38,084 nucleotides of DNA, from positions 1-38,084 of the forward strand of contig SICS01000008.1 in assembly GCA_009691305.1 (NCBI GenBank). Direction: 5' to 3'. This DNA comes from Candidatus Peribacteria bacterium. Lineage in GTDB: Bacteria; Patescibacteriota; Gracilibacteria; Peribacterales; Peribacteraceae. Positions 4,117-18,501 of this stretch are shown one piece after another. Made by a program: the position numbers and the translations under genes. The stretch's first letter is position 1, and the number at the start of each line of letters is the position of its first letter. The notes under the pieces were generated by a model. The model saw nothing but the letters and a program-made list of their open reading frames with translations, was not told where the DNA came from and ran no database searches.

Positions 4117-6801
<2,685 letters not shown>

Positions 6802-7924: not shown

Positions 7925-10162
7925 CTAAATCAACGGTTCTTCGAATTGTTCTTCCACGGCTGCCTGCTCTTCCTTTGATGGTGGTGCCGAGGCAGCCTCG
8001 TCCCACTTCTTCATCATTTCCTCCACCTGCGCTTTGGGCAGGCAGTATTTTTGGCGAGAGGATGCGATAATCTGCTGGGTGAAGTCTTTCTCAGACTTGG
8101 GCGCATCGAGTGTGCGGCCAGAGAACGCCTCACGCAGTTCACCTCCCACCGACATCTTGATGTAGAACTCGCGCACGCCCAGGTTGATGATGTCACGTTC
8201 CTTGAAGATCGGCGTGTATTCCTCGGCAAGGATAACAGCATCCTCGGCACCCACGCGGAAGTTGATGATGGAACCCACGTTGCCGAAGACCGTTTTGCGC
8301 ACGACATCATTGAGCTGGCCCATGTACTGGTGCGCCAGCGTCATGTTCAGCTTGTACTTGCGGGCTTCGCTGAGGATTTCGGCGAAGGTATCGGTCGCGA
8401 AGTTCTGGAACTCATCGACGTAGAAGTAAAAGTCTGTGCGCTTCTCCTCCGGCGTATCCGCCCGGCTCATCGCCGCCTGATACAGCTTGGTAATGAACAT
8501 GGAGCCGATCAGCGACGAGTTCTCTTCGCCGAGCAACCCTTTGCTGACTTTCATGAGCAAAATCTTCTTCTTGTCCATGATCTCGCGAATGTCGAACTTC
8601 GTCTTCGGCTGTCCCACCATGTTGCGGATCATGTTGGTGGCGACGAACTGCCCGACCTTGTTGAGCAGCGGCGTGATGGCGTCGGCATCAAATTTTTCGC
8701 TCCACGCAGCGAATTCCGAGACCCAGAAGTTCTTCACGACAGAGTCCTCGATGCGCGAGACAATCTTCTGGCGATAGTTCTTGTCGGTGAGCATTTTCAG
8801 GATGCTGAGGACCGTTGTGTTCGGACTGTCGAGCAGGGCGAGCGTCGTGTAGCGCAGCACGTGCTCGAGCCGGTCGCTCCAGTTGTTGCCGAAGAGTTTC
8901 TTGAAGATCTGCAGGAAGCCGATCGTCACCTGCATTTTAAACGCGTCGTCGACCTTTTCGAGTGGGTTGAAGGCGATGGGGAATTCGGTGTCACCCGGGT
9001 CCACCAGCACGACATCGTTGATACGGTGTTCGGGGATGAACCGCATAATCGCGTCGATCAAGTCCCCGTGCGGATCGAGCACGGCGATGCCTTCGCCGTT
9101 CTTGAGGTCTTCGTAGATGAGAAGCTCCAGGAGCTTGCTCTTGCCCGCGCCGGACTTCCCGATCATGTAGAGATGTCTGCGTCGGTCAGTGCGGCGGATT
9201 CCGAAGGGTACGAAATTGTTGTGGTAGTTCGTCAGTCCGAAGCCTGAGACGTCCTTTTCGCCGACTTTCGGCAGGTCCTGCGGCGGGTCGGACTTGCGCG
9301 CGAGGACGTGCACGATGTGTGGGACGGTATCGGCGTTGGGGAAGTGGTAGAGCGTCGCGACTTCCTTCGCGCTGAGAATAAATGGCGTTGCGTGCGTCCG
9401 CGCGCGGAACTGCTCCACGAATTTTGCGCCGTTCACGTGGTGCCCGTGCATCTCGTTGATGTCCTTGTCGTTGAACTGCGAGAAACTTGAGATCACGGCT
9501 TCCAGACGCTGCTCCGCGGCCTTTGCGTCGGGCGCGATATACGCGCACCGGATACTGACGCGATACGGCTTGATACCCGATTTCTCCGCGGCCTTCTCGT
9601 GCCGCATGTGCGAGACACCTTTGCGCCCGCCCTCGCGCATCCGGTCGCGGATGGAAAAGAAGTGGCTGATGTCGGCGCGGCGTCGGCGCCAGTTACGCAG
9701 GTAATGGAACGTGCCGGTGTCGTCCTTGGGTTCCGAAATGATTTGCACCCACACCTGGTCGTCGGGGCCGATCTTCGAGATGACAGACAAGAGACGGGAT
9801 GCACTGTCTTCCTCGAACATGTCGTACGTCTTGATAGGATAGATGTCGGCGTGGTGCAGGATGATCTCGGCTCCGGCTATCGACTGCTTCTTCGGGTCAA
9901 ATGCGAGCGTGTAGTCCTTCGTCTCCTTCACTTCTGCATCGGAGAACGTGGAATAGACGAGGCCTTCCACCGTCTCAAACAATTTGTCCTCGAGCACGAT
10001 ATAGAAGTACGTGTACTGCGCGTAGCCGTAGAACTCCAGGCTTACACGCTTACCCGTGAACGTGTTGCGCATGTTGATGAGCAGCTCCTGGAACTTCGAT
10101 TCCAGCTTCTTCGCCCCCTCAGTCCCCTGGGGGATCACGATATGCATGTAGCGGAGCGCCAT
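7925..10162 (-). CDS. Type IV secretion/conjugation coupling-protein-like ATPase (VirD4/TraD/HerA-type)
   Basis: Walker A YMIGKSGAGKSKLLELLI, VLDPHGDLIDAIMRFIPEHRINDVVLVDPGD, Walker B-like FYFYVDEFQNFATDTFAEILSEARKYKLNMTLAHQYMGQL. Confidence 0.88.
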   Translation of the reverse strand: MALRYMHIVIPQGTEGAKKLESKFQELLINMRNTFTGKRVSLEFYGYAQYTYFYIVLEDKLFETVEGLVYSTFSDAEVKETKDYTLAFDPKKQSIAGAEIILHHADIYPIKTYDMFEEDSASRLLSVISKIGPDDQVWVQIISEPKDDTGTFHYLRNWRRRRADISHFFSIRDRMREGGRKGVSHMRHEKAAEKSGIKPYRVSIRCAYIAPDAKAAEQRLEAVISSFSQFNDKDINEMHGHHVNGAKFVEQFRARTHATPFILSAKEVATLYHFPNADTVPHIVHVLARKSDPPQDLPKVGEKDVSGFGLTNYHNNFVPFGIRRTDRRRHLYMIGKSGAGKSKLLELLIYEDLKNGEGIAVLDPHGDLIDAIMRFIPEHRINDVVLVDPGDTEFPIAFNPLEKVDDAFKMQVTIGFLQIFKKLFGNNWSDRLEHVLRYTTLALLDSPNTTVLSILKMLTDKNYRQKIVSRIEDSVVKNFWVSEFAAWSEKFDADAITPLLNKVGQFVATNMIRNMVGQPKTKFDIREIMDKKKILLMKVSKGLLGEENSSLIGSMFITKLYQAAMSRADTPEEKRTDFYFYVDEFQNFATDTFAEILSEARKYKLNMTLAHQYMGQLNDVVRKTVFGNVGSIINFRVGAEDAVILAEEYTPIFKERDIINLGVREFYIKMSVGGELREAFSGRTLDAPKSEKDFTQQIIASSRQKYCLPKAQVEEMMKKWDEAASAPPSKEEQAAVEEQFEEPLI

Positions 10163-10242: not shown

Positions 10243-11934
10243 TCAATAGACGGCCTCCAGATAACACTCCTCACAATAGACAATCTCCGGCCTGTCCGGT
10301 GCGTACGTCGTCTCAATCCCCTTCTTACATTTCATACATTCCCTCGACCAAAATTTTCGGGGGTTCCGTTGTGCAAAGCGGTCGAGGTGGCGCTGGTCCG
10401 GCGATCTACGGGGAAGTGGAAGCCGCTGCTCACGATAGAACTTCAATTCTTGTGGCGTGATTTTGAATGGCTTACTGGTGATTTCACATTTCACTGCCCA
10501 ATTCAACACATCATCAGGAATATTGCTGATTGAATCGGGTAACGATGCACTGTCGATGACTTTCTTCACGCTGGGAGGTGGATCCTGCACATCATCCCAG
10601 TTCCATCCCTGGACGAGCACTGCCTCCTTTTTCATTGGGTAGTACATCTGTGCGGTTGTTTTGTTGTAGCCAAAGGGAGAGAACGTGAACGGGAAGAATT
10701 CCCCCCACTCACCTGTAGTTTGCATATGCTCAATGACTTTCGATATCAGCTTCTCATAGTCTTCCTTGGAATATTGCTTATTGAGGATGCAGTACTGCTT
10801 GTGATGGACATTGACGCATCCAAAACAATTTCTCGAACTATGGACAAACCACGAGTAGAAGATTTCGGAGCAATTCATGTGCACTTGGTGGCTGAAGAGG
10901 GCATGGTAGACATCATTACCAGCCGTACAGCATTCATAGGATTCGCGAAGCTGGAGACCGTACTGGTAGCAGTCGTAGAGATCCTTGGCGCCGGTGACGA
11001 TCTGGTAGAGGTACTTTCCGTTCTCGACGTCCTCGCAGTCAAAGCTCTCCCGAGTGTCCTTGCAATTCTGTAGATGATCGCCTGAGCAATTCTGCAAGTT
11101 CTGTCCCTGGAATTCCTTAAAAGGATGTCCTTTTTCGACCTCTCGGCGTTGTGACTTCCATTGTTGATACTGCTGATGTGAACCGAGGTCGATAGCTGCG
11201 ATTTTCGCTTCGTACTGCTCTTTGCCGAGTTGCATATTCTCGAAACAATATTCCTTCTCACGGAGCCCGGCGCAGAGGAAGCAATTCTTGCAACCGACAC
11301 AGTCGCGCAAGAAGGCAGACGAACTGCAATTGACGCAATCTTGGCTGCCTTTCAGTCCGTAACAGCTATGGATATCCACACAGTCGTAACAGAGTTCGCA
11401 GCTGAGGTTGTAGAAACCGTCTACACAAGACGTGTTTTTCTTGAACCCGTACCCGTAGTAACAGTCTTCGCAGAAATCTGCGTGCATGATCAAATAACAG
11501 TTCTTGGCGAATCCCGCGTAGTGGATATAGTCCGAATTCTCATTCGTTCCTTCATTCAATAGGTTTTCCGCTGGCACCGCGCGCCAGAGTTCTTTGCATT
11601 GTTCAAAGAAGGGTCTAGAGAAATCGACATCGCGGCCATACGTACTCGGATCCCATTTGTCGCTATGCCAGCATTCGCGACAGTATATCACTTTATTGTT
11701 GTGCGGCGGCTGCTCCGTGAGCGCATTTTTCCCGCAGAGTCCACACTTCGCCGAATAGAAGTTCCGCTCATTGCACTGCGCAAGCCGTCGCTGTTGCCGG
11801 CAATCGGGACAATGCGTGGGTGGCGGGATCGGACATTTCTTTCCCGCAAACACCGGCGACACACGGTCGTAAAAATCGAGGTCGTCCTGGGTGACCTCAA
11901 ACGGTTGGCTGCAGTGTCTGCAGGATTGCTTCAT
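10243..11934 (-). CDS. Cys-rich double zinc-ribbon repeat protein, paralog P1
   Basis: CRHCSQPFEVTQDDLDFYD...PTHCPDCRQQRR N-terminal zinc ribbon; dense CxxC repeats; CILNKQYSKEDYEKL; C-terminal CMKCKKGIETTYAPDRPEIVYCEECYLEAVY. About 41 Cys in 563 aa. Confidence 0.93.
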   Translation of the reverse strand: MKQSCRHCSQPFEVTQDDLDFYDRVSPVFAGKKCPIPPPTHCPDCRQQRRLAQCNERNFYSAKCGLCGKNALTEQPPHNNKVIYCRECWHSDKWDPSTYGRDVDFSRPFFEQCKELWRAVPAENLLNEGTNENSDYIHYAGFAKNCYLIMHADFCEDCYYGYGFKKNTSCVDGFYNLSCELCYDCVDIHSCYGLKGSQDCVNCSSSAFLRDCVGCKNCFLCAGLREKEYCFENMQLGKEQYEAKIAAIDLGSHQQYQQWKSQRREVEKGHPFKEFQGQNLQNCSGDHLQNCKDTRESFDCEDVENGKYLYQIVTGAKDLYDCYQYGLQLRESYECCTAGNDVYHALFSHQVHMNCSEIFYSWFVHSSRNCFGCVNVHHKQYCILNKQYSKEDYEKLISKVIEHMQTTGEWGEFFPFTFSPFGYNKTTAQMYYPMKKEAVLVQGWNWDDVQDPPPSVKKVIDSASLPDSISNIPDDVLNWAVKCEITSKPFKITPQELKFYREQRLPLPRRSPDQRHLDRFAQRNPRKFWSRECMKCKKGIETTYAPDRPEIVYCEECYLEAVY

Positions 11935-11938
11935 AACC

Positions 11939-13600
11939 TTAGTATACTTCCTTCAAGTAGCACTCTTCGCAATAGACGGTTTCGGAGCGGTCGGGTGCAT
12001 AGGTAGTCTGGATCTCCTTTTTGCATTTTCCACACGCTCGCGGAAATAACTTGACTCCCGACCGCCGCGCGATCCTTTCCTTGTGCCGCTCATCCGGGTG
12101 TTTTCGCGGGAGTGGTAGATCCAGCTGCCGATAGAACGCGAGCTCCTGCTTGATAATACGGAACGGGCGGGCGGTGACTAGGCATGTCACAGCCCAGTTC
12201 AACACATCATCCGGAATTTCAGTGATTGTTTGGGGCAGCTGCGCTGCTGGAATGACCTTCTGCACATTCGGTTTCTCATCAGACGGCTCTCGCCATGTGT
12301 ATCCTCGTTTTGTCGCCTCTTCCTTATTCAGGGGGAAGTATTCCATCGAGATCGTCTCATTGTACGCGTAGGGACAAACTGACTTCGGAAAAAATTCGCC
12401 CCATTCGGCCGATTTCTTCATGTGAGCGACAAGTTGATCGCGGAGCTTCGCATACTCTTCTTTGGAGTACTGCTTATTGAAAATACAGTGCTTCTTCCTC
12501 CGCATGCCCACGCAGCCGAAGCAGTCGCTGCATCCGGAACAATGCGCACAGTATTCAAGGTTACTGTTGTTCGTCGTACAGGTGGTGCAGAACTTGAGGC
12601 TGTAGCAGCTATCCCCGCACGACGCGCACTGGTACATCAGCTCCGACTTGTCTCCCCATGACGTGTAGTCCATCGACGATTTGACCGAGAAGGTGCGTGC
12701 GCAACGAACGCAATCCTCAAGGTCCTTGCAGTCGTAACAATCCTCGGAATTTTTGGAATCGTAGAGATGGTTGCCGATTGATCGCTCATTGTTTTCATTC
12801 TGCAATGCTTTGTGCGGTTGCTCCAAGAAGAACGCCTCAGATTCTTTGCGGATCTTCTGGACTCCATCGAACGTGTTCAGCTTCAGTGCAGTTTTCTGCT
12901 TTTCATATTCCTCCTTGGTCAGTTGTTTGTTCATGACCATGTACTGCTTCTGCCGCTGGTTGATGCAGCCGATGCAGTCCTTGCAGCCGATGCAATTACT
13001 GAGAAAGAAACTCTCGCTGCAGTTCAGGCAATCCTGGCAGAAGCGGAGCCCGTAACTCTTCTGGCAATCGATGCATTCGTAACACAACTCGTTCTCGAAT
13101 ACGTTGCTGCAGTCGACCATCGACTTGTTGTGGAAGATGCGGTTGCCGTAGTAGCAGTGCTCGTTGTAGTCGGTTTCCGCAATCAAGTAACAGTCCTTCA
13201 GGTATCCCGCACAGTTCACGTAGTCGCTGTTCTGCATCGTGCCCGGGACGACGAATTGCCCCTGATGGGGAACAACGCCGAGCAGCTCAGCGAACTGCTC
13301 AAAGAACGGACGCGAAAAGTCCGGATCGCGCCCGTAGGACATCTCATCCCACCCGTCGCCCCACCATGCGTCAGGCATGTAGACAGGAAACGTGTGGTCG
13401 GGATGGTATGGCGAGATAAACTCTTTCCCGGTGAGGTCGCATTTCCTTTTATAGAGAGTGCGAGCGTTGCGTTCGATGAGCCGGCGCATCAGCCGGCAGT
13501 CGGGACACGACTTCGGCGGAGGGACATCCATATTTTTGTAGAAGTCCTGGTCACGGGAAGTGACCTCGAACGATGCTGTGCATTCCGCGCAGGTGGCCAT
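11939..13600 (-). CDS. Cys-rich double zinc-ribbon repeat protein, paralog P2
   Basis: CAECTASFEVTSRDQDFYK...CPDCRLMRR; NKQLTKEEYEK and CIFNKQYSKEEYAKL; ends CEECYLKEVY. About 40 Cys. Confidence 0.93.
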   Translation of the reverse strand: MATCAECTASFEVTSRDQDFYKNMDVPPPKSCPDCRLMRRLIERNARTLYKRKCDLTGKEFISPYHPDHTFPVYMPDAWWGDGWDEMSYGRDPDFSRPFFEQFAELLGVVPHQGQFVVPGTMQNSDYVNCAGYLKDCYLIAETDYNEHCYYGNRIFHNKSMVDCSNVFENELCYECIDCQKSYGLRFCQDCLNCSESFFLSNCIGCKDCIGCINQRQKQYMVMNKQLTKEEYEKQKTALKLNTFDGVQKIRKESEAFFLEQPHKALQNENNERSIGNHLYDSKNSEDCYDCKDLEDCVRCARTFSVKSSMDYTSWGDKSELMYQCASCGDSCYSLKFCTTCTTNNSNLEYCAHCSGCSDCFGCVGMRRKKHCIFNKQYSKEEYAKLRDQLVAHMKKSAEWGEFFPKSVCPYAYNETISMEYFPLNKEEATKRGYTWREPSDEKPNVQKVIPAAQLPQTITEIPDDVLNWAVTCLVTARPFRIIKQELAFYRQLDLPLPRKHPDERHKERIARRSGVKLFPRACGKCKKEIQTTYAPDRSETVYCEECYLKEVY

Positions 13601-13604
13601 GGCC

Positions 13605-15290
13605 TCAATATACTTCCTTCAAGTAGCACTCTTCGCAATAGACGGTTTCGGGGCGGTCGGGCGCGTAGCTCGTCTGGATCCCCTTTTGGCACTTCATGCA
13701 TGCGCGGTTCCAGAGTTTGCGCGGATTCCTCCACGCGAGACGGTCATCGTAGCGGACATCGGGATGGAGACGCGGGAGGGGGAGGTTCATGTCCCGGCAG
13801 AACTGCAGTTCCTGCTTGATGATGCGAAAAGGCCGGTCTGTTTTTTCGCAACGGATGGCCCAGTTAAGGACGTCATCCGGGATATCGGTGATGCTATCGG
13901 GGAGTTGTGCGGCCGGGATGACTTTGGCGACGTCGGGCATGCGGTCGGTGAGGTCACGCCACAGGAACCCTTTCGCAATGGCCTCCTCTTTCGTCAGCGG
14001 GAAATATTCGTTGGCGAGCGTTTCGTTGTACCCGAACGGCGCGTTCTTTGCCGGGAAGTATTCCCCCCACTCGCCGCGCCTTCGCATTGCGTCGATGATC
14101 TCTGGAACCAGTTTTTCGTATTCCTCTTTCGTGTATTGCTTGTTGAAGATGCAGTACCGCTTGTGTTTGAGGCCCACGCATCCGAAGCAATCTTTACAGT
14201 GCTGGCAATATTCGGAATAGAGAAGGTCCTGGCTGTAAAAACAGAAGAGGCAATAGGCGCCGTGGTAGACCTCGATGGCGCCGAGGATGTCGTAACAGAG
14301 CTCCACCTTCATATACATGTTCGAGCTGTGCTGCGTGTCTTTGATCGCGACTCCCACGTACGCATGTAGGCAATCCTGGCTGTCGGTGAGGTCGAAACAT
14401 TCGGTGCAGTGTTTGGAATTTTCGATTTCGTCGCCGGTGCAGGCTTCGCAATTGACGATATTCGCGAAACGATGGACGCGTGACCGCTCGATCTCGTGCC
14501 ACTCCTTCGTAAGCGCTTCATGCGCGGTGTGGGAATTTTGGAAACTGAGGAGTGTCTTTTGATATTCCTCTTTGCTGACGGGCTTGTTACGGACGTGAAA
14601 CTCCTTCTGGCGCAAATTGCTGCAGAGGATGCAGTTCTTACAGCCGAGGAGGTTTGTGGAGAAGTGGCAGTCTGAACAATTTTTTGAGAAGGCAAGGGAC
14701 GTGCAGCCATACGAATCGTACACGCCGACGCAGTCGTAACACCGTTCGCTGTCATAGATGTAGGAACAGTCGACGCAATTGCGGCACTTCTGCAGGAGTT
14801 TGCCGTAGTAGCAATCCTCGCAGTACTCCGAGGAGTTCGTGAGGTAACAATTTTTGCTGTACGCGGTCCCCGTCGTAAAGTCGCAGTTCTCGTTCGCGAG
14901 GACGATCAGCCCCATGCGCGGGACGGCTTTGTGGAGGTCTGCCCATTGTTCGAAGAAACTCCGTGCGGGGTCATACGTCCTGTTGTCCTTGGATGCCTCC
15001 CACCCGTCCCCGTTCCATTCGTCGTGGCCGTACACCAGATAATCTTTTCCCCACAGCGCTCCTGCTTCGTAGATGGAGACCATCGGCTTTCTCGAGAGGC
15101 TGGATTCCGCCTTATAGAGGAACCGTTCATTCCGGTGGCATGTCCGCCGCTGAAGACGGCAATCCGGGCAGCGTGTCGGTTCCGGCAGAGGAATAGTGAT
15201 ACTGCCGAACGTGAAGGCCATGCGTTTCAGGAAATCCCTCTCGTCATCGGAGAGCAGGAATGTCTGGCCGCATGTTACACACGTTTTCAC
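13605..15290 (-). CDS. Cys-rich double zinc-ribbon repeat protein, paralog P3 (GTG start)
   Basis: CVTCGQTFLLSDDERDFLK...CPDCRLQRR; NKPVSKEEYQK and CIFNKQYTKEEYEKL; ends CEECYLKEVY. About 39 Cys. Confidence 0.93.
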   Translation of the reverse strand: MKTCVTCGQTFLLSDDERDFLKRMAFTFGSITIPLPEPTRCPDCRLQRRTCHRNERFLYKAESSLSRKPMVSIYEAGALWGKDYLVYGHDEWNGDGWEASKDNRTYDPARSFFEQWADLHKAVPRMGLIVLANENCDFTTGTAYSKNCYLTNSSEYCEDCYYGKLLQKCRNCVDCSYIYDSERCYDCVGVYDSYGCTSLAFSKNCSDCHFSTNLLGCKNCILCSNLRQKEFHVRNKPVSKEEYQKTLLSFQNSHTAHEALTKEWHEIERSRVHRFANIVNCEACTGDEIENSKHCTECFDLTDSQDCLHAYVGVAIKDTQHSSNMYMKVELCYDILGAIEVYHGAYCLFCFYSQDLLYSEYCQHCKDCFGCVGLKHKRYCIFNKQYTKEEYEKLVPEIIDAMRRRGEWGEYFPAKNAPFGYNETLANEYFPLTKEEAIAKGFLWRDLTDRMPDVAKVIPAAQLPDSITDIPDDVLNWAIRCEKTDRPFRIIKQELQFCRDMNLPLPRLHPDVRYDDRLAWRNPRKLWNRACMKCQKGIQTSYAPDRPETVYCEECYLKEVY

Positions 15291-15294
15291 GCCC

Positions 15295-15345
15295 TCAGTA
15301 TACCTCCTTCAAATGACACTTCCCGCAATTCAAAGAGAAAACATT
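15295..15345 (-). pseudogene. Fossil C-terminus of an additional Cys-rich paralog
   Basis: Minus-strand GTG AAT GTT TTC TCT TTG AAT TGC GGG AAG TGT CAT TTG AAG GAG GTA TAC TGA = ...NCGKCHLKEVY*, collinear with the paralog ending CEECYLKEVY*, stop exactly 4 nt before the P3 start. Confidence 0.8.
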
Positions 15346-15623
15346 CACGAGAGATTGAGATATCCATGCGTACCCGTCCGTAAGAGATGGACGATCCCCG
15401 GTTCTTGTTGCCGGAATAAGACGACCCAATTGTGGGTGATATGTGCGTCGAGGGTTCCTTGCATGTCTCCTTTTAACGGATGAATATTGTATCGCTCAGG
15501 AAAAGGGGGGCCTTTTTGAAGTTCCTGAAAGAATTTCTGGAGCTGTGGCATGTTCCAACCAGCCTTCTTCAGACGCTTCACATCTTTATCAAACTGCCGA
15601 TGAAATCTAAATTTACAGGTCAT
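15345..15623 (-). CDS. YafQ/RelE-family mRNA-interferase-like toxin
   Basis: MTCKFRFHRQFDKDVKRLKKAGWNMPQLQKFFQELQKGPPFPERYNIHPLKGDMQGTLDAHITHNWVVLFRQQEPGIVHLLRTGTHGYL; typical YafQ pattern (FkkDvKr..krg...L......L..g..Lp......L.G...g..d.Hi.pdwvL.Y). Confidence 0.88.
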   Translation of the reverse strand: MTCKFRFHRQFDKDVKRLKKAGWNMPQLQKFFQELQKGPPFPERYNIHPLKGDMQGTLDAHITHNWVVLFRQQEPGIVHLLRTGTHGYLNLS

Positions 15624-15894
15624 TGATGTACTTCTCGATGTCTTCGGCGGTCTCCAACGTTGCAACGATATCCGGGTTACGGATCTGCTTTAGCAGGCTT
15701 GCCTCAAATTCAGGAGTGAATCCGTTCACTGTTACTCGAGGAAGAGGCACAGTTCCCTGCATGGTGGTGTGCATGAAAAACAGCCGAATGGCGGAACTTA
15801 CATCTAATCCATTTGCCTCAAAAACCTTTAGGGCATCGCGCTTGAGCTTCCGTGGCATACGGATATGGATATCGTCAGAGGGGGAAGTGGCCAT
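15613..15894 (-). CDS. RelB/DinJ-family antitoxin
   Basis: DDIHIRMPRKLKRDALKVFEANGLDVSSAIRLFFMHTTMQGTVPL; RHH antitoxin pattern; overlaps toxin start; ATG at 15894 used rather than the longer track ORF. Confidence 0.88.
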   Translation of the reverse strand: MATSPSDDIHIRMPRKLKRDALKVFEANGLDVSSAIRLFFMHTTMQGTVPLPRVTVNGFTPEFEASLLKQIRNPDIVATLETAEDIEKYINDL

Positions 15895-15930
15895 GTACAC
15901 ATAGTACCACGTTGTGGATACAATGGTCAA
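15895..15930 (-). promoter_or_regulatory. Putative leaderless promoter of the antitoxin (TTGACC-N18-TACTAT-N6-ATG), -35 overlapping the P4 stop codon
   Basis: Minus strand TATTGACCATTGTATCCACAACGTGGTACTATGTGTACATG. Confidence 0.55.
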
Positions 15931-17600
15931 TAGACCTCCTTCAAATAGCACTCCTCGCACAGAATCTTCTCCTTTCTGTCGGGTGCATACGAGGTTTGTA
16001 TGGGTTTCCGACAGGTTGCGCATGCCCGATCCCAGAGCTTGCGGGGATTCCGCGATTCTTTGCGGGAACGATGACGACAAAAGAAGCACTGGTCGGGAAC
16101 CGGGAGTCCACGACTGCGGTAGAAAGCGAGTTCCTGCGGAATAATTTTGTAATTCTTACGGCAGGACGTGCACGCAAGTGCATGGGAAGAAATATCGTCC
16201 GCAACGTCCTTAATCGCATCCGGGATTGGGTATTGCTGTGGAAGAAATTCCTTCTCATCGTCCGTCCGCCACTGGTATCCGCGTGCTGTCGCGACTTCCT
16301 GCGTGAGTGGAAAATGGTCGAATGCAGTCGATTCGTTATACGAAAATGGGGACAGGGTGACGGGAAAGAATTCACCCCACTCTTTTGTTGATTGCATGTG
16401 CGCAATGATTTTCGGCACCAGCCGCTCGTATTCCTCTTTCGAGTATTGCTTGTTTAGGATGCAGAACTTTTTCCTACGTACCCCGTTGCATCCAAAGAGG
16501 TGGCTGCTGTGGAGACAGAACGTGGAGTAGAGCAGGTCGGAAATTTGGTCGAGGCAATTGGATGTGAATAGCAAATGGTTGGCGTTGTAGCCGCAGACGC
16601 CGCACTCATAGAGCTGTTCTCCTTCCCCGACCGCTTCGCAGTCCATGGAATCTTTTACGGGCAGGAAGGCTCGATACACGTTGGTGCAATCCCATAATTG
16701 GTTTCCGTCGAAACAGTGCCGAACATTCTTTGATTGGGTGATGTAATCGCCCGTCACGTTTTCATTTTGCCAGCCATGCATATATTTCTGCGCATAGAGC
16801 AATTTGCGCTGCTCAAAGTGCTTCTGTGAAGCATTAATGCTCGAGCGGGACTGCAGAGCCAGAACAAACCGGTCGAATTCCTCCTTTGTGACCTGCCGGT
16901 TTTCCACCACGTACTCCCGGTTCACTAGGTTGCTGGACATCAGGCAATTACGGCATGAGGTGCAGTTTTTTAAAAAGAGGCAATCCGTGCAATTGACGCA
17001 GTCCTGTAGGAAGGAGCTGCTGTAGCACTGCTGACAATCGATACACCCATGACACAACTCGCTTCCCCGGACGCGGAAGCAGTCCAGGCAGTCGCGCGAT
17101 CCATTCAGGCTATAGGAGTAGAGGCAATCGCGGTTCTCATCGGAATCGAAGATGAGGTAGCAGTTCTTGTTCTTGCCAGAGTAGTTGGTGTAGTCGCAAT
17201 TTTCGTCATACTGATAACCAGTGAACAGGTTCATGTGTGGCACTGCCAAACTGAGTTCAAGGTACTGCTCAAAGAATGGCCGGCTGAAATCAAAATCCCG
17301 GCCGTATTCCAGAGGATCCCACTTGTCCGAGTACCACACCTCTTGGTCGTACACTTTGTACGGTGACGACGGATGGATATTGGAAATGATGTCTTTCCCG
17401 GTCAAATCACATTTGCGTTTGTAGAGATGGATCTCATTGCACTGTGCAGCCCTCCTCTGCTGGCGACAATCCGGACACTGCGTGGGCGGAGGGATCTGCA
17501 TCTTCTTTCCGCCGATGACCGGGGAGACCTTGTCGTAGAAATCTAGGTCACTCTGGTCGATGACGAAGGGGTGCTGGCACTGGGTGCATGTCTGTTGCAT
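15927..17600 (-). CDS. Cys-rich double zinc-ribbon repeat protein, paralog P4
   Basis: MQQTCTQCQHPFVIDQSDLDFYD...CPDCRQQRR; CILNKQYSKEEYERL; C-terminal ribbon with complete CTSC...CFFC and CEECYLKEVY. Start trimmed to ATG 17600. Confidence 0.92.
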   Translation of the reverse strand: MQQTCTQCQHPFVIDQSDLDFYDKVSPVIGGKKMQIPPPTQCPDCRQQRRAAQCNEIHLYKRKCDLTGKDIISNIHPSSPYKVYDQEVWYSDKWDPLEYGRDFDFSRPFFEQYLELSLAVPHMNLFTGYQYDENCDYTNYSGKNKNCYLIFDSDENRDCLYSYSLNGSRDCLDCFRVRGSELCHGCIDCQQCYSSSFLQDCVNCTDCLFLKNCTSCRNCLMSSNLVNREYVVENRQVTKEEFDRFVLALQSRSSINASQKHFEQRKLLYAQKYMHGWQNENVTGDYITQSKNVRHCFDGNQLWDCTNVYRAFLPVKDSMDCEAVGEGEQLYECGVCGYNANHLLFTSNCLDQISDLLYSTFCLHSSHLFGCNGVRRKKFCILNKQYSKEEYERLVPKIIAHMQSTKEWGEFFPVTLSPFSYNESTAFDHFPLTQEVATARGYQWRTDDEKEFLPQQYPIPDAIKDVADDISSHALACTSCRKNYKIIPQELAFYRSRGLPVPDQCFFCRHRSRKESRNPRKLWDRACATCRKPIQTSYAPDRKEKILCEECYLKEVY

Positions 17601-17705
17601 GCGGTTAGTCTGGCAAATTCCCAATAAACGTCAATATATACAACGGAATTCATACTACTATTTTGGCTTGTATTAGAGGAAATATGACAGTAGGATTCTA
17701 TAAAT

Positions 17706-17722
17706 CGTCAGAAAAGTTGACG
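17706..17722. promoter_or_regulatory. Inverted repeat CGTCA-N7-TGACG upstream of the TrmB-like gene; candidate operator
   Basis: Perfect 5-bp arms, 20 bp upstream of ATG 17743; another CGTCA half-site at 17629-17633 near the divergent P4 start. Confidence 0.3.
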
Positions 17723-17742
17723 CTAATTCTCCCACGCCACCC

Positions 17743-18501
17743 ATGCACGACGCACTCCTCACCAAACTCGGCCTCAGCCCCAAGGCGGCAGCCGTGTACC
17801 TCGCGTGCCTGCAGCTGGGCCCATCCGGCATGACGGAGATCGCCAAGGCGGCATCACTCAAGCGGCCGTCAACGTACCTGGTCGTCGATGAACTCTTGAT
17901 GCGCGGATTCCTGAGCGTCTCGAAGAAAGGGAAGCGCACGCTCTACGCGCCGGAGCACCCGCGTCGTTTTCTCCAGCAACTCAAGACCCGTGAGCGCGAA
18001 CTGGAAGGCATGTTGCCCGAGCTGGAAGCGCTTTACTACGAACCGCGCGACAAGCCCCGCATCCGCGTGTTCGAAGGGCGGGAGGCGATGATGCAGATGT
18101 ACGAAGGAGTGTTCCGCCGGCTTGCCGAAGAGCGCGGTGAACTCCTGTTCTACACCGCCATCGGGGACCTGCAAGAAAATTTCCCCGAGGCACTCGACCG
18201 TTTTTTCACACTCGTCCGCGGCCATGATGAATTCCACATCCGTGAATTGAACATGGGCGATGCACGAGGCATCCAGTACGCGAAAGATGCCAAGCGGATG
18301 GCCGGGAAGAATCACCAGATCCGCCTGCTGGACCCCAAAAAATTCCCGTTCTCGGAAACGGACAACCTCATTTATGGCGATACCCTGATGATGTTCTCCA
18401 TCAAGCGCGACATCTTTGCCGTCGAAATCGGGCACAAGCAAATCGCCGACGCCCACCGCGCCCTCTTCAATGCGGCCTGGGAAGCGGCCGCTCCGATGTG
18501 A
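17743..18501 (+). CDS. TrmB-family transcriptional regulator
   Basis: LLTKLGLSPKAAAVYLACLQLGPSGMTEIAKAASLKRPSTYLVVDELLMRGFLSVSKKGKRTLYAPEHPRRFL wHTH plus TrmB-type C-terminal effector domain. Confidence 0.88.
   Translation: MHDALLTKLGLSPKAAAVYLACLQLGPSGMTEIAKAASLKRPSTYLVVDELLMRGFLSVSKKGKRTLYAPEHPRRFLQQLKTRERELEGMLPELEALYYEPRDKPRIRVFEGREAMMQMYEGVFRRLAEERGELLFYTAIGDLQENFPEALDRFFTLVRGHDEFHIRELNMGDARGIQYAKDAKRMAGKNHQIRLLDPKKFPFSETDNLIYGDTLMMFSIKRDIFAVEIGHKQIADAHRALFNAAWEAAAPM

Follow-up and report, generated by a model that had tools for sequence, protein, structure and literature searches.

Contig SICS01000008.1 of a Candidatus Peribacteria bacterium (assembly GCA_009691305.1), analyzed here as one window of 38,084 nucleotides, encodes an array of four cysteine-rich proteins with a predicted solenoid middle region (the Cys-solenoid family; positions 10243-17600, minus strand). 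A VirD4/HerA-like ATPase of 745 amino acids (aa) lies 80 bp downstream on the same strand (7925-10162). Comparison of gene neighborhoods shows that the Cys family, one ATPase orthogroup and a TrmB-type regulator form a conserved neighborhood, and the pattern of presence across genomes shows that the ATPase is gained and lost in step with the family. Because the family travels with a single ATPase that bears a characteristic C-terminal tail, its members are probably interchangeable partner subunits of a motor and not metal stores. The specific proposal, that the array supplies alternative client or adaptor subunits to one dedicated ATPase, is assigned a probability of about 0.45 from sequence comparison.

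The four paralogs occupy 10243-11934 (paralog 1; 563 aa, 41 Cys), 11939-13600 (paralog 2; 553 aa, 40 Cys), 13605-15290 (paralog 3; 561 aa, 39 Cys) and 15927-17600 (paralog 4; 557 aa, 38 Cys), all on the minus strand. Each is defined by its open reading frame (ORF) and the family profile, with alignment as additional support for paralogs 1, 3 and 4 and a structure prediction for paralog 2. The ORF of paralog 4 was listed from a TTG at 17624, although the family start is better matched by the ATG at 17600. Paralogs 2-4 are 42-44% identical to paralog 1 by alignment, and all four share a CxxC...CPDCRxxRR start, two Cys-rich blocks and a C-terminal TTYAPDR.E..YCEECYL..VY. The first-pass annotation, made from the sequence of the window, had described this arrangement, including strand, sizes and Cys counts, and the ORFs and alignment agree with it; only the word “giant” overstates proteins of about 560 aa. 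Each copy reaches about 1000 bits on the family profile (1023 bits for paralog 1), and 259 distinct full-length relatives could be aligned, so the array is not a chance resemblance. The window family averages about 558 aa and 7% Cys, and Cys number per protein ranges from 27 to 53 among members.

Within the class, at least 62 of 118 genomes carry the family; these counts are lower bounds from capped samples in which some genomes are fragmented. Next to family arrays, the genes found most often encode a TrmB-type regulator (40 loci) or a VirD4-like ATPase (19 loci). VirD4-like ATPases number about four per genome in 20 class genomes, yet one orthogroup alone adjoins the family in most of them, commonly 65-175 bp downstream on the same strand. 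Both partners are present in 51 of the 118 genomes and neither in 55, with the ATPase alone in one and the family alone in 11 (Fisher 3.5e-21, a value that ignores phylogeny). Mixed states of presence and absence occur within seven GTDB families. The one genome with the ATPase alone (G390) is assembled in 230 contigs, and seven of the 11 family-only genomes have an adjacent divergent ATPase (G312, G342, G354, G359, G364, G368 and G377). The adjacency recurs in four genomes of other classes (G014, G168, G208 and G291). In the window, the TrmB-family transcriptional regulator (17743-18501, plus strand; Pfam TrmB 40.8 bits, cut-off 25.6) is divergent from the array. In 20 genomes, 27 of 92 TrmB genes have a family gene within 1.5 kb, against 1.8 expected, and 22 of these 27 are divergent.

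The ATPase matches Pfam T4SS-DNA_transf (PF02534; 38.7 bits, cut-off 20.1) together with the TrwB and TraG-D domains, and its VirD4-type motor domain has a Walker A motif within an invariant GKSGxGKS region. Foldseek matches of its predicted fold include TrwK/VirB4, TrwB (TM-score 0.64 normalised to target), Cag-beta, DotL and HerA. The protein shares domains and fold with VirD4/TrwB/DotL coupling proteins and HerA translocases, but differs from them in having no predicted membrane segment or N-terminal anchor (top 19-residue hydropathy 1.0), in standing apart from type IV secretion system (T4SS) genes, in its own C-terminal tail and in its link to the Cys array. Across 20 loci, no T4SS gene belongs to the conserved context of the ATPase; only TrmB and the Cys family recur. 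Of 5,713 VirD4 homologues in Patescibacteria only 148 lie near virB4, exaptation has been considered, and the orphan VirD4-type ATPases have been given no function (PMC12102498). One such orphan orthogroup is now linked to a partner family and a regulator and has a likely docking motif, which makes its role testable. No account of the Cys-solenoid family, the tail or the ATPase pairing was found in the open-licence papers searched.

The C-terminal tail of the window ATPase reads FEEPLI (7928-7945, minus strand), with the consensus F-x-x-P-[LI]-[ILV]-COOH. All 25 aligned ATPases of the orthogroup end in P-[LI]-[ILV] after a variable linker, whereas ATPase paralogs do not. Over all fetched loci, 32 of 34 ATPases with a family gene within 2 kb carry the tail, compared with 2 of 35 other ATPases and 3 of 1377 background ORFs. 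One of the two tail-bearing exceptions is only 2.9 kb from a family gene, and the other is the ATPase of G390. Of the two adjacent ATPases without a tail, one shares its locus with a tailed copy (L187) and the other belongs to L186, where the Cys proteins are short and split. Residues 739-745 are unstructured in the model, with a predicted local distance difference test (pLDDT) score below 50. We infer a docking motif, since such motifs usually take this form: a conserved peptide at the very end of the protein, preceded by a disordered linker. In bacterial SSB, an acidic-hydrophobic C-terminal tail recruits diverse partners.

Candidate docking surfaces are found at the ends of the Cys proteins. 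In paralog 2, the N-terminal module (residues 1-100; 13301-13600, minus strand) and the C-terminal module (residues 465-553; 11942-12208, minus strand) are each a treble-clef pair, and the two are homologous (hhalign probability 99.8, E 1.1e-29). Four zinc sites are predicted. Two of them, C4/C7/C32/C35 and C523/C526/C544/C547, keep the CxxC...CxxC order of four ligands and are near invariant (Cys 94-100% kept); the other two, including C54/C57/C75/C78 of the N-terminal module, are optional, complete in about one-fifth to one-quarter of members and retained or lost as whole sets. Paralog 4 retains all four Cys in the first clef of its C-terminal module. The C module carries a net charge of +5 to +10. 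The first-pass annotation had likened the ends to treble-clef or zinc-ribbon domains, a likeness borne out by sub-threshold matches to zf_Tbcl_2 (26.2 bits, cut-off 27) and zf_Tbcl (20.4 bits, cut-off 24); searches of Pfam, NCBIfam and PADLOC found nothing for the Cys family beyond such end-domain matches. The end modules resemble zf_Tbcl (PF13451) and zf_Tbcl_2, or CxxC-x17-CxxC (PF23477, TIGR04272), in position and Cys spacing, but the matches cover only the ends, and those families lack the solenoid, the duplicated double-clef layout and the ATPase link. A sequence search of the PDB with the Cys family returned LIM fingers only, marginally. The C-terminal finger shares the CxxC-x17-CxxC pattern of the LIM second zinc finger of CRP1 and CRP2 (profile E 0.0023); LIM proteins differ in being eukaryotic, and a single finger is matched with a marginal score, with no LIM pair scoring above cut-off. 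Elsewhere in the genome of the array, the C-terminal double-clef module has a short relative that stands alone (L005; G000:C33:6271-6519).

Between these modules lies a predicted beta-solenoid with an inward residue at every third position. The first-pass annotation had suggested a Cys-lined solenoid and proposed structure prediction, profile searches and a genomic-context survey as checks. An AlphaFold2 model of paralog 2, metal-free like all structure models here, shows a confident beta-solenoid middle (mean pLDDT 90.1, predicted template modeling score 0.90), weaker around residues 121-180 and 290-350. The profile searches gave no full-length match to a characterized enzyme family. Solenoid block A (residues 121-228; 12917-13240, minus strand) is defined by a 12-residue period, a triplet Cys register and predicted strands, and block B (residues 269-378; 12467-12796, minus strand) by its Cys register and predicted strands. 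Cys pairs in block A number 5-7 per protein at every multiple of three residues, most strongly at 3 and 12, against 0.1-0.2 at other distances. The model has no Foldseek match at E <= 0.001 in the PDB (350,542 chains) or among viral models, and its apparent novelty is relative to these two collections. A large and strongly conserved family, with as many as 38 members in a genome of some 1 Mb, is thus without a significant PDB fold match. The Tenebrio antifreeze protein is a small beta-solenoid with 12-residue coils, a Cys core and i,i+6 Cys spacing. The array solenoid shares its period of 12 and its inward residue at every third position by analogy only: there is no Foldseek match, i,i+6 is the weakest multiple of three here, and the Cys are unpaired. 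Hydropathy revealed no strongly hydrophobic segment of the signal-peptide or membrane-helix type in the Cys-family proteins, as the reading of proteins without a signal peptide had anticipated.

The solenoid also carries the identity of each paralog. Of 79 proteins, 74 have their nearest relative in another genome. The paralogs are therefore old types, and recent tandem duplication is ruled out as the source of the array; an ortholog of paralog 1, for instance, was found in a genome of the same genus (L034). Between types (pairs 35-50% identical overall) solenoids are 33-42% and C modules 47-61% identical, whereas within types (pairs at least 60% identical overall) the values are 62-92% and 64-80%. 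The solenoid therefore defines the type and is conserved within it. Earlier it had been stated that the ends are constant while block B diverges. This holds among the array paralogs (C clefs 52-67%, block B 29-41%), but the order is reversed for the closest orthologs (block B 83-91%, ends 73-83%). Likewise, the description of a diversifying family is apt insofar as the paralog types differ, and misleading insofar as no part of a given type is better conserved than its solenoid. The same evidence, together with low nonsynonymous divergence where synonymous divergence is saturated, does not support an arms race as the cause of solenoid diversity. A different signal is seen at the C terminus: paralogs of different types from the same genome have a modestly raised C-module identity (0.547 vs 0.506, z 4.7) against z <=1.4 in other regions, with genome-matched columns peaking at 519, 528 and 550; within a genome, matching is strongest in the last treble clef. 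Synonymous identity shows no matching jump, and recent gene conversion of the 3' ends is thereby ruled out.

These features can be assembled into a working model. A hexameric motor would present several copies of the acidic-hydrophobic FEEPLI tail on flexible linkers. Cys-solenoid proteins would use the basic treble-clef modules at their ends to dock on this tail, and the various paralogs would then either compete for a single motor or share it. Each solenoid would be built on a ladder of small core residues, frequently Cys, and would bear a type-specific surface that binds a particular substrate or partner and so selects what each complex acts on, while TrmB would set when a type is made. The motor may act on nucleic acid or on protein, and the solenoid may be either a resident adaptor or moved cargo. 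Somewhat more tentatively than the partner-subunit proposal, we suggest that these parts make up an undescribed machine of Patescibacteria, with a soluble motor whose tail recruits exchangeable Cys-solenoids, specificity given by type, and control by TrmB.

Several points weigh against this assignment of the array as partner subunits, besides the disregard of phylogeny in the Fisher values. The cut-off for the ATPase orthogroup (1e-200) was chosen once the E-values were known to leave a gap from 1e-223 to 1e-160. Single genes make up 56 of 83 family runs, and many of these singletons are far from an ATPase. The genome-matched signal amounts to 4 percentage points, to which shared ancestry of co-located genes could add, and positions 5 and 10 at the N terminus show it as well. 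Other possible binding partners of the tail are the ATPase itself, a membrane component and an unlinked protein. Finally, in two loci, L189 (G208) and L186 (G312), the Cys family is split between a short solenoid protein (306 or 350 aa) and a clef protein (about 105 aa) encoded separately, and the adjacent ATPase has no tail. Linkage is therefore possible without the tail, and these loci may show an older or different arrangement.

Among other explanations, the one that survives best is that the ATPase is a true type IV coupling protein for which the Cys-solenoid proteins serve as T4SS substrates, delivered to host cells with the basic C-terminal module as export signal and the solenoid as effector or adhesin part. 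T4SS signals typically have a conserved, positively charged C-terminal end, which the family possesses; the ATPase belongs to the VirD4/TrwB/DotL group, and families of 4-38 members per genome recall effector repertoires. Patescibacteria are moreover mostly epibionts, with T4SS of a non-conjugative role (PMC12102498). We nevertheless regard secretion as unlikely: the ATPase is without a membrane segment or a T4SS gene in its conserved context, few VirD4 homologues in Patescibacteria lie near virB4, and the solenoids are the slowest-evolving part among orthologs, unlike arms-race effectors.

Rather improbable is a scaffold family to which the ATPase is functionally coupled without being its physical partner, the tail docking elsewhere, for instance on a membrane or replication protein. 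A scaffold role had also been among the options of the first-pass annotation, and may apply. The link between the two is sequence-based and many family genes are far from the ATPase gene, and the tail resembles the SSB-type tails that recruit diverse partners. Against this, the tail tracks adjacency to the family almost perfectly, and the remaining ATPases in those genomes lack it.

An anti-phage or conflict system, in which a HerA-type motor is served by a repertoire of recognition subunits, seems more doubtful still. HerA defense complexes are among the ATPase fold matches (8xav, 8sub and 8zit), the ATPase matches PADLOC mad8 (E 3e-12) and HerA (E 1.3e-4), and distribution inside families is patchy. 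These matches reflect the shared ATPase superfamily, and PADLOC matches only the partner ATPase in this way, with none to the Cys family. No nuclease, SIR2 or other killing gene is conserved nearby, and up to 38 paralogs of conserved type per genome would be unusual for defense. A toxin-antitoxin pair does lie alongside, comprising a YafQ toxin (15345-15665, minus strand; PF15738, 72 bits) and a weakly RelB-like antitoxin (15613-15891, minus strand), but in the neighborhood survey it did not recur beside the family at other loci. The pair separates paralogs 3 and 4, so that the array, previously called tandem, consists of four same-strand copies with an interruption.

The cysteines themselves bear on the first-pass reading of the array as a system for metal storage, buffering or redox chemistry. 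Zinc-ligand Cys covary in sets, with phi of 1.00 for 57/75/78, 0.96 for 476/504 and 0.92 for 7/35. In the solenoid, phi peaks at 0.35 across 946 pairs of Cys columns, and Cys is replaced there by S, V, L, I, T or A, as for core-packing residues. With the zinc quartets as internal control, a model of paired Cys for metal or disulfides is rejected, and the solenoid Cys are not retained in metal-site sets as would be expected of metallothionein-like proteins. In the alignment the solenoid Cys behave as individually exchangeable core residues and not as ligand sets or obligate disulfides, and the predicted zinc is structural and located in the end modules. It is accordingly very improbable that the thiols of the solenoid are ligands of Zn, Cu or Fe-S or undergo disulfide cycling, even if a Cys content of about 7% and the CxxC spacing with period-12 stacking bring thiols spatially close, because the solenoid Cys are freely exchanged without covarying, vary from 27 to 53 per protein in overall number, and are accompanied by TrmB regulators with few Cys. 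A weaker variant, with loose or non-specific metal binding by these thiols, may apply. Metal storage is no longer the default reading for such Cys-rich arrays.

The divergent intergenic region between regulator and array (17601-17742) contains an imperfect inverted repeat (17623-17634 / 17717-17728). Relatives do not conserve this repeat; we therefore claim no operator, and a shared operator in this gap was rejected. Elsewhere, palindromes such as TTGTCTATAATTATAGACAA stand directly upstream of the TrmB start in L051, L067 and L071, and the TrmB-array gaps of L089 and L038 hold a different palindrome, TGTTCTT...AAGAACA; judged by position, these may be TrmB operators of differing specificity.

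The source genome (1.07 Mb, 44 contigs) contains four full copies of the family and one short C-terminal fragment, and its closest named relatives are Candidatus Peribacteria and Peregrinibacteria. A spread sample of the phylum yielded the family in 23 of 294 genomes, mostly of the same class. Multi-copy genomes hold from 4 to 38 copies, the highest numbers being 22, 19 and 38, and adjacent copies are on the same strand in 149 of 149 cases in the fetched loci. Genomes that recode TGA (L183-L188 and L193, with in-frame TGA) share this gene pair and ATPase tail, which means that the system either predates the change of code or has crossed it.

Another group of Cys-rich proteins is known from the same lineage. 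The secreted Cys-rich proteins of Ca. Peribacter average 1,655 aa, are predicted to be extracellular and mostly have a signal peptide; some are clustered, and their Cys content is similar at about 7% (PMC4736985). The array family is a different set, shorter and without a signal-type segment. A 453-aa protein with 38 Cys, a signal-peptide-like start and ILDPGEECDKG-type repeats (L151:1973-3331; G000:C1) is probably one of the secreted proteins. Full-length members of the array family also occur on contigs labeled Micrarchaeota (DPANN archaea; L114 and L118), by transfer or mis-binning. The phage and plasmid records searched gave no match to the Cys family; a fragment of a family member does lie at the end of a viral-classed contig (L128; IMGVR_UViG_3300025030_000857, 5838-5963).

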